DNA of 64,000 nucleotides. Origin: Chrysoperla carnea (lineage: Eukaryota; Arthropoda; Insecta; Neuroptera; Chrysopidae). Positions 14,847 through 53,040 of the stretch are shown in pieces. Each line of letters opens with the position of its first letter. Position 1 is the first letter of the stretch. The notes under the pieces were generated by a model that saw nothing but the letters and a program-made list of their open reading frames with translations, was not told the DNA's origin and searched no databases. The stretch is from contig NC_058340.1 of NCBI RefSeq assembly GCF_905475395.1, positions 70,410,181-70,474,180 of the forward strand, read 5' to 3'. The translations under genes and the position numbers were made by a program.

Positions 14847-17800
14847 ATGGCGGATAGAAATGAGAAAGTGTTAATGGAATTATTAAAAAAACCGGGTAAC
14901 AATGAATGTGCCGATTGTGGTAGTAAAAGTAAGTGTCATTCATAATTTTATCCAAAAACAATTCAAAATTTTTATGTCATCATCAAAACATTTGATGTGT
15001 GTTGTGTATATTATATGAAATCTAGGAAATTCATGTGTATTGGGTGATACATGATATATATATTTTGATTGATATTTTAAACTACTTCTGTCTTTAGCTT
15101 GGGGGCGTTTACATTTTTATTTATTTATTTATATTGCGTGAAACATTATTGTTTATGTCATTTTTATTGAATATGTATATATGTATAAATTTGTAATATT
15201 CTATTATTATTATACAGAGTGGTGGAAAAGTTACGCATGTGTTTAAAATTGGAATAACTTTCTACAAATAATTAATTTTATTATTTTAACTATATGCATA
15301 AACCTGGGAAATTTTATATATTTCGATCCCTTGTGTAAGATTCTTGTAAAAATCAAATTTTGTAGTTGTCATGTTTATTTGTTTATGTTGTCACATATTC
15401 TAAGACACTTGGCTTGACAGTCGGTTGAAGGTAGGTTAGGTTAGATTAGGTTAGAGTGGCTGTCCTGGGGTGGGACACACTTAGACCATAGGGTCCGTTG
15501 TGATACCGTAAATGGGTTGGCCCATCCCCGGCCAGTACTCCATGAACCATTTGGAGCTGTTTAAGAACAGCAGGAAGGCTTTGACGTCGACTGACTTTAG
15601 GTCGGAGAGGTCGTCAAAGAGAGGCTGGCTCAAGTAAGTCCATCTCCTCATGACAAGAGCTGGGCAGTGACAGAGAAGATGAGGCATTGTCTCTTCCTCG
15701 TCATCACTGTGACAGCTCCTGCAGTAGTCGTGATACACTGCCAGGCCTAAGCGTTCCGCATGCTTGCCGCCCAGCCAGTGTCCTGTGATAGCCGCAACAA
15801 CTTTGCGAACAGAGGCCCTTGGAAGTGATATGAGAACTTCGGAACGTCTGCGATTGTACTCAGACCATATCTGTCTTGTAGTACCACAAGTACGTTCTTC
15901 CCTCCATCTAAGATTTGCCTTTTTCAGGATATCCTCTTTCAGGAGTAACTTGCAGTTCGCAAATGGAACTCCCGGATATTTATTGATGCTTGTGTCCGGC
16001 AGCATCGTGCCATTTCTGGCAAGCTCGTCGGCTTCACAATTTCCTGGAATGTCCCTGTGTCCCGGTATCCATACCAGGTCTACATTCATTCGTTCCGCCA
16101 GCTCATTTAAGAACGTACGCCAGTCCTGTGCTACCTTTTACGGTTGAAGGTAAAAGACGTAACTCTTTCGTTGTAGTCGGGTAAAAATAGAAATGAACTA
16201 TTTCAGTACGGAACAAAATCGTCCAAATTTTTACGCTTTTAGAATCTGTAATAAAAATATTAAAATTAACTGTAGAAAGTTATTATATGCGTGATTTTTG
16301 CGCTATCCCGTATTATTACATAAATTTATTGTATCTATTTAGATATTTTAAATCTATTTTAGAAAAGGTTAGAAATATGAATTGTAGAAAATAATTTTAG
16401 AAATACTTAACTATCCGTTTATTATCTTATCAAGATTCACAATACATGGTTTTTCCAACAAAAACAAAGTATAAGAGTATTTGGACTATAGACCGGCATA
16501 ACCACAATAAAATTCTTTTCAAAAAAATTTGCTTATTGTGTTACGATATTGTGGCGTTACTATTTTATGATTTATTTGGTTTTTTTAATGTCTCATGTAA
16601 AGATGACTCACGCTAGAAACATGCTTGTGTACAAATATAATCACACATAAGAATTAACTGTTGATGTATTTAAAATTTCCCAATATCTTGACCTCTGACC
16701 TTCCTTCAGAGGCCAACACTTCAAAATGTATGATAATTTGTACATTTCTTCACTATCTAATTTTTACCCCAACGACGGCGAGTTATGTATTTAACAGGTA
16801 TGTATGTATATGGTTCATCTGTTCCCTCATAGTTTTCTAAACTCTTTATCATAATTTGACAAATGAAGTTGGTCGCTTTCACGCAAAAACTACCCAATGG
16901 ATTTAAATGAAACTGTACAACAATGTAGCTCATACATCAGAATATAACTAAAAATTTCGAGAGATATCTACATATTCTGTAACACTCTGTATTAATACTG
17001 ATTTTGTTTTGTTTATTGATGTTAATTAATATCTATAGAGGTCATTATATAATTTATAAGTGGATGACTCATATCAATTAATAAGAGAGAAATGGAATGA
17101 TTGTTTTTTGTCCTCTTTTATTCATATCGATAAGATACGTCTCGAAAATGAAATTTAAAATTAAAAGAAATATCCGAAGAATCCTTCCCATTTTTCAATT
17201 CTTAGAAACAATTTATAGTTGTCTTGTCATATGTCATTGAATGTCAGATCTTCAGTTACGTTATCTAATGCTTTGCTCCCAATTTTCTATTTTCCTGCCT
17301 GATGCAATTTCAGGCGAAACTACAGTTACTTCACTCAAGCAAGTTTCAAGTATGTGTTTATCATTTAAAAAAACCTGTGGTGTCCCACGGTCTATAATGG
17401 ACCGTGACAACCCTAAAATAAAATTAGATTTTTGGATCTTTTGGTTAAAAATGTTTGGTTTTCAGATCCGGTATGGGCATCATATAATATTGGTATATTC
17501 GTGTGTACACGTTGCGCAGGCGTACATCGAGGAATGGGAGCACATATTAGTAAAGTAAAACATTTAAAATTAGATCGATGGGAAGATTCACAAATTGAAC
17601 GAATGAAAGAAGTGGGAAATAAAGTGGCAAGACTAAAATACGAAGAAAGAGTACCACCATGTTACCGAAGGCCTACCGAAGATGATCCTCAGTTAGTATA
17701 CTCAGTTATGTTTTTGCAGGATATGCTTGGAGGATCACAAAACCTCTACTAATGTTATTTGTGTCCTTGCAAAGTCTCCAGTGAGTTGGACACAAGACGT

Positions 17801-19132
17801 TATAATTGAAACTAGGTTAGGTTAGGTTAGGTTAGAGTGGCTGTCCTGGGGGTCCATTATGATACCGAAAAATGGTTGGTCCATCCCTGATCCTTACTCC
17901 ATGAACCATTTGGGGCTGTTTAAGAACAGCAGGGTCAACCCTAATAGCTCAGTTGGTTAAAGCGTAACCAATTAGCGGATTCGATTTCCGACGTTACAAA
18001 AATTAATTTCATTAATGGTTGTGATGGGGTGGTGGGATAATGGTGCATAGTATATGCATGAAGGAGGTACACTCAGTCTCTCAAAGATAATTATGTCCTG
18101 ATAAATGAAATTACCAGCGAAAAACATGGTATCACAATGGGCCCTATGGCCTAAGTGTGTCTTTCGTGGACAGCCAATATAACCTAAACTTATCTAACCT
18201 AAGTACAGCGGAAGTGCTTTGACGTCAACGGACTTGAGGTCAAATAGATCGTTAGAAAAAGCTGACTAAAGTGGGCACATTCCCCATAGCAAAGCTGGAC
18301 TTGATTACATATTCCTTATTTGATTCCTAATGGTTGTTAAATTTTTCCAGAGTATTAGTTGAACAATGGATAAAAGCGAAATATCAGCGTGAAGAATTTT
18401 GCCACCCAGAACGACAGCAATTGTATATAAACGGGCATATGGAGGGATTTTTAATGAAACGTGGCAAAGAAGATAGTCGATTTCACCCTCGAAAATTTAT
18501 ATTAAACGAAACCGAAGATACATTAAAATATCATGTAAAAGAGCGTAAAGATCCGAAAGCAGTTTTACGAATATCAGAATTAAATGTTGCATTCGCACCA
18601 GAAAAAATTGGAAATTTAAATTCATTACAAATAACATTTATCAAAGATGGATCAACGCGACACATTTACGTGTACCATGACGACCCAGAGACAATTACAA
18701 ATTGGTACATGGCAATACGATGTGCGAAATTACATCGATTGCAAGTTGCGTTTCCAAGTGCAAGCGAAAGTGATTTAGTTGGACATTTAACAAAAGATTT
18801 TGCCAAAGAAGGATGGTTATGGAAAACGGGACCAAGGAGTAGTGACGGATACAAGAAACGATGGTTTACACTTGACAATCGTAAATTAATGTATCATGAC
18901 GAACCGCTAGATGCACACCCGAAAGGGGAAATATTTTTAGGGCATAACTCAGAAGGTTATAGTGTACATAGTGGAGTGACAGCAGGCACGAAGGATCAAG
19001 GTTTCTCATTTACGTTAAAGACCCCGGAACGTACGTTTAATTTATCGGCAACGACAGAAGCAGATCGAGATCATTGGATTGAAGTTATACAACGGGTACT
19101 TGAAAAACCACTTACACCGCAAGACACATCAA
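14847..19132 (+). CDS. ADAP1: ArfGAP with dual PH domains (centaurin-alpha/ADAP), last exon not secured
   Basis: GTPase-activating protein for Arf that is recruited to membranes by PIP3/inositol-phosphate binding. Exons: 14847-14928, 17466-17691, 18351-19132; phases agree and give 363 residues plus one nucleotide. The ArfGAP zinc finger is C21-x2-C24-x16-C41-x2-C44 with the catalytic arginine in GVHRG (R49), and the Cys set is split by intron 1. PH1 spans about residues 133-230, with basic KRGKEDSRFHPRK in the first loop. PH2 spans about 255-354, with KTGPRSSDGYKKRW. The PH2 exon ends at a GTAAGT donor after TPQDTS. The family normally continues about ten residues, so a short terminal exon is missing. 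A weak candidate is 19353-19375; reading through gives a stop at 19203. Intron 1 holds a LINE; intron 2 holds a LINE with a SINE inside it. Confidence 0.94.
15434..16140 (-). mobile_element. 5'-truncated non-LTR retrotransposon (RNase H end) with 12-bp TSD
   Basis: It is flanked by perfect 12-bp duplications CGGTTGAAGGTA (15422-15433, 16141-16152), proof of insertion at this site. An open frame on the minus strand (16137-15481, open at the truncated end) encodes the C-terminal part of a LINE polyprotein. It has an RNase H-like WIPGH..I.GN..AD.LA motif, then a Cys/His segment C-x2-C-x11-H-x3-C near YCRSCHSDDEEETMPHLLCH. The 3' UTR is under 60 bp and ends in TAACC-type repeats instead of poly(A). 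The frame is still open, so the insertion is recent. It lies antisense in ADAP intron 1. Confidence 0.93.
17813..18300 (-). mobile_element. Second LINE 3' fragment, split by a SINE (ADAP intron 2)
   Basis: Segments 17813-17933 and 18205-18300 align in order with the 3' end of the LINE at 15434-16140 (GAGTGGCTGTCCTGGG, CATGAACCATTTGG, CTGTTTAAGAACAGCAGG, then GCTTTGACGTC). The SINE at 17934-18204 interrupts it. The low-coordinate end carries four to five TTAGG units. It is more decayed than the first copy and does not encode protein. Confidence 0.85.
17934..18204 (+). mobile_element. tRNA-derived SINE, copy A, inserted in a LINE
   Basis: The head has a RNA polymerase III A box (TAGCTCAGTTGG) and a B-box-like GATTCGATTTCC at tRNA-like spacing. 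A non-tRNA body follows, then a tail of about 70 bp that matches the 3' end of the neighbouring LINE (GGTATCACAA, CCCTATGG, CTAAGTGTGTC, GGACAGCCA, then TAACCTAA repeats). It is flanked by ACAGCAGG / ACAGCGG from the interrupted LINE, an approximate 8-bp target duplication. A copy in the other orientation is at 51503-51782. Confidence 0.88.
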
Positions 19133-19203
19133 GTAAGTTACTTATTTTAACTAAACAAAAACGCGTGTGTGCTGATTTTTTTTGCTTTAAATGTGGATGT
19201 TAA

Positions 19204-42752: not shown

Positions 42753-43440
42753 ACAAGTGAAAACAAACAATTGACTGAGTTAATTGTTGAAATACTATGT
42801 ATATAGACAGTGTAGATTACTCACATTACACATACATACCTGCCACACATATATAACTGGTATTCTCATATAATACATACTATACAATTTGCACATAATT
42901 TGCGCTCTCACACAGGGTGAACAGTGATATTTACGAAAAAATGTATCAAACAAAATTATTTTTTTATAAGGAACATTTTTCATATTTAAACTTTTGTCCT
43001 GTCTCTAACGGTTTACAAGATGGGTCCTACGGACCCAGGATCCAATTGGCCTATGTTGCTCATTTACGAACTCAGCTTCAATTTTTTACGTTCTAAGCTA
43101 TTTACGTTGTTTTTACGCTATAAAAATTTCAGCTTGTTATCTTTTTTCTTTTTTGAGTTATCGTGATGACAGACAGACAGACGACAGACGACAGATGACA
43201 GACGACAGACGACAGACGACAAACGACAGACGACAGACGACAGACGACAGACGACAGACGACAGACGACAGACGACAGAAGACAGACGACAGACGACAGA
43301 CAGACAGACACACGGAAATGGACTAATTAGATGATTCTATGAACACCTATACCAAAATTTTTTTCGTAGCATCATTATTTTTAAGCGTTACAAACTTGGG
43401 ACTAAACTTAATATACTATGATGTATTTCATATACATGGT
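42753..43440 (+). mobile_element. AACAAGTG/CATGGTAT repeat family, copy c, with expanded minisatellite
   Basis: It runs from ACAAGTGAAAAC to TTTCATATACATGGT. The internal GACAGAC segment, short in other copies, has expanded here into about twenty 7-bp units. Confidence 0.8.
43168..43312 (+). repeat. 7-bp minisatellite (GACAGAC)n
   Basis: About twenty near-identical tandem heptamers with occasional ATGACAG, ACAAACG and AGAAGAC variants, within repeat copy c. The reverse strand is open across it only because the heptamer lacks stops; it is not a gene. Confidence 0.95.
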
Positions 43441-51470: not shown

Positions 51471-51502
51471 TAACCTCGGAGTTCGTAAATCAACAACATA
51501 GG

Positions 51503-51782
51503 TTAGGTTAGGTTAGGTTAGGTTATATTGGCTGTCCACGAAGGACACGCTTAGGCTATAGAGCCCATTGTCATACCATATGTGTTTTACCACCTTTCCG
51601 CTGATAATTTCATTTATTAGCTCCTCAATTTCAGAGGCTGAGTGCACCTCCTTCATGCATATACCATGCACTACACTAGCCCATCACAACTTTTAATTAA
51701 ATTAATTTTGTTGCGACAGCGGGAATCGAACACACTACCCTAAGCATACCGCGGACGGAATTGGTCACTCCTTAACCAACCT
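51503..51782 (-). mobile_element. tRNA-derived SINE, copy B, perfect 16-bp target duplication
   Basis: It is flanked by identical AAATCAACAACATAGG at 51487-51502 and 51783-51798. On the minus strand a B box reads GTTCGATTCCCG. The A-box region is shorter than in copy A (GGTTGGTTAAGG). The body matches copy A (GATGGG, GTATATGCATGAAGGAGGT, GAAATTA.CAGCG), and the 3' end GTGTCCTTCGTGGACAGCCA is followed by TAACC repeats. The host DNA is a fragment of the AACAAGTG/CATGGTAT family (GAGTTCGTAAAT, then TAGGTCGATTGGGTCTTGGG). Confidence 0.9.
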
Positions 51783-51845
51783 AAATCAACAACATAGGTC
51801 GATTGGGTCTTGGGCCCGCAGAATGCTCATAGATTCTTAAAAACA

Positions 51846-52529
51846 TCTGAAAATTTTCTATAACTATTCAGCTTTCGATATTTCGAAAATTAAGGCAGAT
51901 AACGAAAAATGTTATTTTTATTCTTCGTTTACATTCGTGAAGTTATAATAAAATTCATCATCAAAGTTGAAAATAAGATAAAAATCATTTCAACTCCGAA
52001 TCTAGCCAAATATGTTTACTATCTATAAAAAAAATTTGTTTTCATTCGTTCCAAGTGAAAATTATCAAAAGCTTTCAAAATATGTCGTTTATTGAGAGTT
52101 CTCCATAACAGCAATGTATTTTATATTGGTTTTCAATTATTTAAAAAAAATTTGTATGGACACCTAAGCTCAAATTTTAACCATTTATTCTTTGAGTAAA
52201 AGTCTACCTATAAAATAGTTTTAAGTCTTTAAATCAAACATTGATGTCATGCTCATACATCCTTAATCACATCTAAATCAACATTGTATTTTATTTTCAT
52301 CAAATTCCTTAAGAAAATTGTTTTTACGAGCAAACTACCTTAAAACTCAAGTTTTTGGAACTATATTCCTTATCGCACGTTATGATTTGTTTTGCTGGTT
52401 GAGATGTAAAACCAAAAAATGGTGCAACAATTTAAAACGACTCCAAAATTCGAAGATATAGGTTACCTCGACTACAAGCCGCGCTGAATATTAACAAAAA
52501 TATATAGACAGAAGAAATTGATCATACAA
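51846..52529. other. Repeat-derived non-coding DNA
   Basis: Parts are reverse complements of 57240-57480 (TTCAACTTTGATGATGAATT, GAAGTTATAATAAAATTCAT), so this is a dispersed repeat of unknown class. No gene. Confidence 0.45.
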
Positions 52530-53040
52530 AATTGAACATGTGCATAATAAATCATTCAAACCAGCAAGAAAATCAAAGAAAATTTGAGTAAAAAAGTAAG
52601 CACTACATTTATAATGTACGAAGATACGATAGGAACATAGTTCTTACCAGGTGTCCTACGAAAGATCTCTCTTTTTTTAAATAATGTTAAGGGTATTGGG
52701 TATTACATATATTAAATACGTCTTTAATAAATTCTAGTAGCTAATTTGAATAAACGACCCCAAAATCCGACGATGTAGACACGGCAAAATGATCGTATAA
52801 ACTTGAACATGTGCATAATCAATCATTCGAACCAGCAAGAAAATCAAAGCAAATTTGAGTAAAAAAGTAAGCACTACATTTATAATGTACGAATATACGA
52901 TAAGAACATAGTTCTTACCGGGTGTCCCACGACAGCACTCTATTTTTTAAAATAATGTTGAGGGTATTGGGTATTACATATATTAAATACGTCTTTAATA
53001 AATTCCAGTAGCTAATTTGAATAATACAATAGAACACAGG
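52530..53040 (+). repeat. Tandem duplication of a 271-bp unit (about 1.9 copies)
   Basis: GAACATGTGCATAAT occurs at 52534 and 52805, and the following 220 bp (GCACTACATTTATAATGTAC, GGTGTCC.ACGA, GGGTATTGGGTATTACATAT, AATTC.AGTAGCTAATTTGAA) repeat in the same order. A third, partial copy at 60225-60745 is split by a MITE. Confidence 0.9.

Follow-up and report, generated by a model that had tools for sequence, protein, structure and literature searches.

A putative stringent-type LINE/SINE pair with telomere-like (TAACC)n tails in the lacewing Chrysoperla carnea

A LINE and a SINE of Chrysoperla carnea share one 3′ end, which closes in a telomere-like (TAACC)n tail. We consider it likely that they form a stringent-type LINE/SINE pair, in which the tail serves the element as its own handle for priming and register and has no use at present-day telomeres. 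The pair was originally predicted from a 64,000-nucleotide stretch of chromosome 4 (NC_058340.1, positions 70,410,181 to 70,474,180; hereafter the window), together with a possible tie between the tail and telomeric DNA. SINE 3′ regions match the LINE, and most of the copies read end in TAACC; these are the reverse of the two observations that the prediction had named as counting against it (unmatched SINE 3′ regions and non-TAACC tails). On this sequence evidence, the predicted partnership appears sound.

The window holds two copies of each element, with the following features (positions within the window).
17933..18203, + strand: SINE-a, with a putative tRNA-derived head, a body, a LINE-like 3′ end and a degenerate TAACC tail
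17945..17956, + strand: A-box-like motif TAGCTCAGTTGG in the putative Pol III head of SINE-a
17977..17989, + strand: B-box-like motif GGATTCGATTTCC in the head of SINE-a
18128..18177, + strand: LINE-like 3′ region of SINE-a, matching the LINE 3′ UTR; consensus stem UGUCC/GGACA
18178..18202, + strand: degenerate (TAACC)n tail of SINE-a, TAACC TAAAC TTATC TAACC
17815..17932, − strand: 3′ part of LINE-b, split by SINE-a, with a tail run at 17814-17831; 75% over 150 nt against LINE-a
18204..~18294, − strand: remainder of LINE-b past SINE-a; 75% over 103 nt against LINE-a
15434..16140, − strand: LINE-a, a 5′-truncated RNase H LINE, with (TTAGG)n on the + strand at its left-hand 3′ end
15481-16137: open frame of LINE-a, 218 codons
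15422..15433, unstranded: target-site duplication of LINE-a, tail side, CGGTTGAAGGTA
16141..16152, unstranded: target-site duplication of LINE-a, 5′ side
51503..51781, − strand: SINE-b, cleaner than SINE-a, its tail a perfect (TTAGG)n on the + strand at ~51499-51525
51486..51503, unstranded: target-site duplication of SINE-b, tail side, 18-bp exact, overlapping the tail
51782..51799, unstranded: target-site duplication of SINE-b, 5′ side, 18-bp exact

SINE-a is nested inside LINE-b, an older second copy of the same LINE family that the original prediction did not contain. The insertion has a probable target duplication, ACAGCAGG (17926-17933) / ACAGCGG (18205-18211); that of LINE-a is 12 bp long. 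The tail first read in SINE-a does consist of TAACC units, but it is degenerate, and clean tails come from other copies such as SINE-b. The host site of SINE-a and LINE-b is an ADAP-like gene, between an ArfGAP-like exon (assigned by eye) and a PH exon (18331-19203). Elsewhere, the window contains a 271-bp unit in a tandem pair, 92% alike (52515-53024), and a 20-copy GACAGAC microsatellite (43168-43309).

The LINE and SINE 3′ ends are homologous in the window and across the genome. As the prediction stated, SINE-a and the minus-strand LINE-a carry the same words in the same order: GGTATCACAA (18128), CTAAGTGTGTC, GGACAGCCA (18168) and TAACC-like units. BLAST within the window aligns these two ends at 80% identity over 76 nt (E 5.6e-14). 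The family consensus sequences, drawn from 62 SINE and 24 LINE copies, are likewise 80% identical (63/79 identities). With the tail removed, their alignment scores 52, against a maximum of 29 among 2000 shuffles.

Genome-wide, both families end in a 5-bp stem, then a family-specific loop and (TAACC)n. We searched 559,487,470 bases in 337 contigs, C1 having 139,979,878 bases. The exact stem-loop-stem-tail motif occurs 1484 times, and its reversed control 0 times. By eye, the first 100 of these matches split into two discrete classes in which each loop goes with its own spacer: 34 are of LINE type, with a CACCCCA-like loop and a CTC-like spacer, and 66 of SINE type, with a TTCGT-like loop and an ATA-like spacer. 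Exact ends followed by two TAACC units number 1094 for the SINE type and 276 for the LINE type (reversed patterns, 0), and SINE stem-loop ends rise to 1880 when a tail is not required.

The stem UGUCC/GGACA is identical in LINE and SINE, while the loops measure 7 nt and 5 nt, respectively. Hairpin covariation is absent because the stem does not differ between the two. The entire 3′ end folds no better than its shuffles (z −0.6 and −0.8), and the short hairpin lies barely or not below them (SINE z −2.2, LINE −1.1). The LINE reverse transcriptase would recognize this common 3′ end, presumably through the hairpin.

The shared end belongs to the LINE 3′ UTR. Among the 20 LINE copies that match a test word for the end of ORF2, 18 read ...SSKWFME followed by a TAG stop, and the shared end is therefore 3′ UTR; that it might encode the last ORF2 codons is ruled out. 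Nine of the 29 LINE copies do not match the test word, and seven of these nine also have TAG by eye. LINE-a has TAC in place of TAG, and reads on to ...GITTDPMV. Of the ~81 nt of this UTR, roughly the final 65, together with the tail, recur in the SINE, which would have acquired them from the LINE itself or from one closely related to it. A single exact pattern, specific to the present LINE subfamily, finds 0 LINEs with the SINE-type TTCGT loop. Thus, the SINE may have received its end from a sister LINE that is perhaps extinct or has escaped detection.

It is very improbable that the SINE is nothing more than a LINE derivative, deleted or chimeric, that lacks a functional partner. An open frame of ~46 codons in the 3′ half of the SINE (consensus, by eye) is what a coding piece might leave; however, it says little, since ORF2 stops upstream of the common end. 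The SINE also exists in many uniform copies, has duplications of its own and carries a tRNA-like head in which A- and B-box-like motifs occur. From 2295 first-look candidates, 40 were scored and gave 42 matches; among these, copies of SINE-a lie on all six chromosomes, the main ones apart from itself being 73-81% identical. We regard the head as a putative Pol III, tRNA-derived one from its box-like motifs. At default settings, ARAGORN calls no tRNA in the window or in the SINE head consensus, and a relaxed run on that consensus returns one ill-formed tRNA-???. Rfam likewise reports no tRNA, with weak matches only, far under gathering scores.

Allowing one mismatch per unit, tails have a median of 3 units in LINEs (27 copies, range 1-8), 3 in pattern-picked SINEs (32 copies, 2-5), a set selected for having two units, and 4 in BLAST-picked SINEs (24 copies, 2-6). 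Rare arrays reach 29 units. We read 20 SINE ends on C1 that were selected for lying outside the list of perfect tails: a TAACC-like tail with mutations is still visible in 18 (L126 and L131 among them have a common flank), one is degenerate (L138) and one has barely a unit (L139). Slippage is a plausible source of tail length, not separable from later microsatellite expansion.

The LINE is a non-LTR retrotransposon, with a reverse transcriptase domain, 5′ truncation and target-site duplications. The RNase H domain predicted for LINE-a falls just under the Pfam cut-off in that fragment (24.9 versus 25.8 bits), but exceeds it in the longer copy L053 (32.5 bits), where an RVT_1 reverse transcriptase lies upstream (72.2 bits, above cut-off). 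Among the matches listed, copies that bear a reverse transcriptase are mostly broken or partial. Copies of LINE-a genome-wide, apart from itself, are 93-96% identical (40 scored out of 4666 candidates). Of 29 LINE copies, 27 cease to match the rest within 1.45 kb of the 3′ end; the truncated copies L059 and L060 are uninformative. The reverse transcriptase motif GTPQGGVLSPLL may place the LINE in the LOA or I group. I clade LINEs carry RNase H. Protein searches with the LINE returned no clade names among its relatives, and a viral contig scan found nothing.

We made three further observations on LINE copies and their relatives. Six of 29 copies (within L029-L058, LINE-a included) are 5′-truncated no more than 2 nt from one point, and three more lie 14-16 nt off. 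A hot spot for truncation could possibly account for this, as could a source copy that was itself short, in a set picked by similarity to LINE-a. Two copies ~43 kb apart on C3 (L048 and L052) match at 97% identity across 3.4 kb, have a common flank and represent a segmental duplication. Two insect-like LINE reverse transcriptases are filed under Streptomyces sp. IBSBF 2390 (P0129 and P0134), probably through assembly contamination.

Both families make ordinary target duplications, and their tails overlap the target. We gathered 93 copies, having set aside LINE L052 (the segmental duplicate of L048) and SINE L061 (a repeat fetch). Ten in which the tail rule located no tail, several of them strongly 5′-truncated, were dropped, which left 83. 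A duplication scoring at least 9 flanks 34 of the 83 (14 LINE, 20 SINE), against 0.5% of 400 mismatched pairs; the other 49 have no duplication at score 9. Across the 34, tail and target overlap by a mean of 2.21 nt, compared with 0.43 nt at shifted positions, and 0 of 20000 resamples reach 2.21. The overlap is at least 2 nt in 25 of 34 copies (10% in the null). It persists where the non-overlapping core itself scores at least 9 (mean 2.11, 27 copies).

Read on the element strand, targets favour T^TA(A). In the 34 copies, T occupies −1 in 17 and +1 in 18, and A occupies +2 in 24 and +3 in 13; 17 duplications start with TA, and 11 of these follow a T. Such a target implies a primer ending in TA or TTA, which pairs with the UA(A) of the tail. 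We propose target-primed reverse transcription in which the nicked strand would end, at a presumed nick position, in ...TA or ...TTA. These bases would anneal to UA(A) in the RNA's (UAACC)n tail, and synthesis would run on as GG(TTAGG)n. The SINE would be copied in trans by the LINE reverse transcriptase. The annealing role first suggested for the tail is thus supported at ordinary TA/TTA target ends, but not at telomeres.

The readable chromosome ends carry neither element. Eleven of 12 ends were fetched, 10 kb each (C6 right excluded); two read N, and the nine readable stretches contain no (TTAGG)3+ run and no SINE or LINE match. (TTAGG)10 has 133 exact overlapping places genome-wide; grouping the first 100 gives 17 arrays on C1-C4, every one of them interior and no longer than ~145 bp. 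Three of these 17 lie less than 10 Mb from an end, as chance predicts. C. carnea is also reported to be Southern-negative for TTAGG, with no recognized telomere motif meeting search criteria (PMC12564400). The suggested link between the tails and telomeric DNA is therefore not borne out.

These data make it highly unlikely that a telomere link is in action, with the (UAACC)n tail priming on a telomeric G-overhang or targeting telomeric arrays as in TRAS/SART or Athena. The tail RNA is indeed complementary to a (TTAGG)n 3′ overhang, and exact LINE ends on C1 are enriched in the first 10 Mb (17/55, p 1.6e-7). Yet SINE ends on C1 show no such enrichment (of the first 100, 15 lie within the first 10 Mb, where 21 are expected), and the LINE bias spans megabases at one end. 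Moreover, 34 of 83 copies have ordinary target duplications, and the subterminal repeat seen is TTGGG rather than TTAGG. We saw no insertion into telomeric repeats of the TRAS/SART kind. We reject telomere targeting on the bare readable ends, the subterminal TTGGG and the chance spread of the arrays. On some chromosomes, one end is richer in LINE copies (C1 and C2, 0-10 Mb), with statistics on C1 alone. The megabase-scale, one-sided bias on C1 looks more like retention in repeat-rich chromatin than telomere targeting.

The repeat found near chromosome ends is TTGGG. (TTGGG)8 has 573 places genome-wide; the reversed control is the same repeat backwards and says nothing. We grouped the first 100 by hand into 40 arrays on C1-C3, of which 33 lie less than 10 Mb from an end, 28 of those 33 in telomere orientation. 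Almost all near-end arrays are at C1 left (0-10 Mb), C2 left (0-10 Mb) and C3 right (84-94 Mb); none is near C1 right or C2 right among the matches listed. Blocks at 34-37 kb and 155-158 kb on C1 and C2 resemble a single unit that was duplicated; the arrays therefore lack independence, and the p-value for their placement serves as a rough guide. Both features count against a simple telomere reading. This distribution suggests that TTGGG is the telomere motif of C. carnea, although the arrays sit almost only at one end per chromosome. A telomerase gene is present: PF12009, the telomerase RNA-binding domain, scores 57.8 bits at C4:16343644-16344015, within an open frame of 714 aa.

Most of the long interior TTAGG arrays listed are retrotransposon tails. 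By eye, 15 of the 17 listed arrays clearly adjoin a LINE or SINE 3′ end and one more adjoins a degraded end (L117). That telomerase or repair added TTAGG at nicked targets or breaks, independently of the element RNA, is extremely unlikely: a telomerase gene exists and the G-rich strand is the primer strand, but the arrays sit at element ends, and tails start at a fixed point past the hairpin spacer. Furthermore, with TTGGG as the subterminal repeat, one would expect TTGGG units from the host telomerase. We therefore reject telomerase-added tails. One array, L118 (C3:61265500-61265770), is the sole listed long TTAGG array that has no recognizable LINE or SINE end.

UnaSINE1 is the SINE partner of the eel LINE UnaL2. 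We place the lacewing elements, as a new member, with stringent LINE/SINE pairs having short-repeat tails. Like UnaL2/UnaSINE1, they combine a common LINE/SINE 3′ end, a short tandem-repeat tail and a putative 3′ hairpin; the UnaL2 tail consists of TGTAA repeats with template slippage (PMC3747384). Unlike that pair, the lacewing LINE is presumably of a different group, its tail unit is TAACC, its host is an insect, and recognition of the end is presumed. The I element (I clade) also ends in a short non-poly(A) repeat, TAA (PMC3747384). The lacewing LINE resembles it in this kind of tail, but differs in its TAACC unit and its SINE partner.

Telomere-associated elements offer looser parallels. 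The TAACC orientation equals the CCTAA side of junctions of TRAS (R1 clade, with SART), as given by the search templates of PMC12564400. TRAS and SART integrate within telomeric arrays and have poly(A) ends, whereas the lacewing elements are dispersed and end in TAACC. A TRAS-like R1 origin may be suspected from the TT|A-compatible nick and the tail orientation, but reverse transcriptase motifs would argue against it. Athena, a group of endonuclease-deficient Penelope-like elements, embodies a similar idea in priming from chromosome 3′ ends (PMC3846280). These elements have no endonuclease and lie largely at chromosome ends, in contrast to the target duplications and interior sites of the lacewing elements. 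Class A of the mammalian short interstitial telomeric sequences, flanked by SINEs or LINEs, likewise places interior telomere-like repeats beside retroelements (PMC9693754). In the lacewing, by contrast, the repeat is the element's own 3′ tail. Among open-licence PMC papers, judged by titles and opening lines of abstracts, we found none describing SINEs of lacewings, SINEs tailed with TTAGG or interstitial repeats that stem from retrotransposon tails.

The likeness of the tail unit to a telomere repeat is probably a coincidence of a UAA-rich tail. It is unlikely, if less so than a live telomere link, that the tail is a relic taken from ancestral neuropteran (TTAGG)n telomeres, by a LINE that targeted them or by copies primed on them, and retained for priming after a chrysopine change to TTGGG. 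TTAGG is reported in Myrmeleontidae, Ascalaphidae and Nothochrysa capitata, and TTGGG in Nineta flava (PMC12564400); the tail has the orientation required, and the TA/TTA target ends fit the repeat register. On the other hand, short-repeat tails such as TAA in the I element and TGTAA in UnaL2 arise without telomeres (PMC3747384). A fuller version is similarly doubtful: the LINE ancestor would have primed on TTAGG ends or arrays and would now use any TA/TTA nick, leaving the old repeat to survive mainly as retrotransposon tails.

Our preferred reading of the tail, as a handle carried by the element, clearly illustrates that telomere-like repeats inside chromosomes can be the tails of retrotransposons (15 or 16 of 17 listed arrays) rather than traces left by fused chromosomes or by telomerase repair. 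Telomere surveys by FISH, Southern or sequencing reads could be misled by them, above all in a species whose telomere motif is unsettled. The telomere-oriented subterminal (TTGGG)n and the telomerase gene bear on that question in C. carnea, for which a published search found no motif (PMC12564400). The pair also offers a natural system for relating LINE tails to target choice, since many copies show the register of the tail alongside its target.
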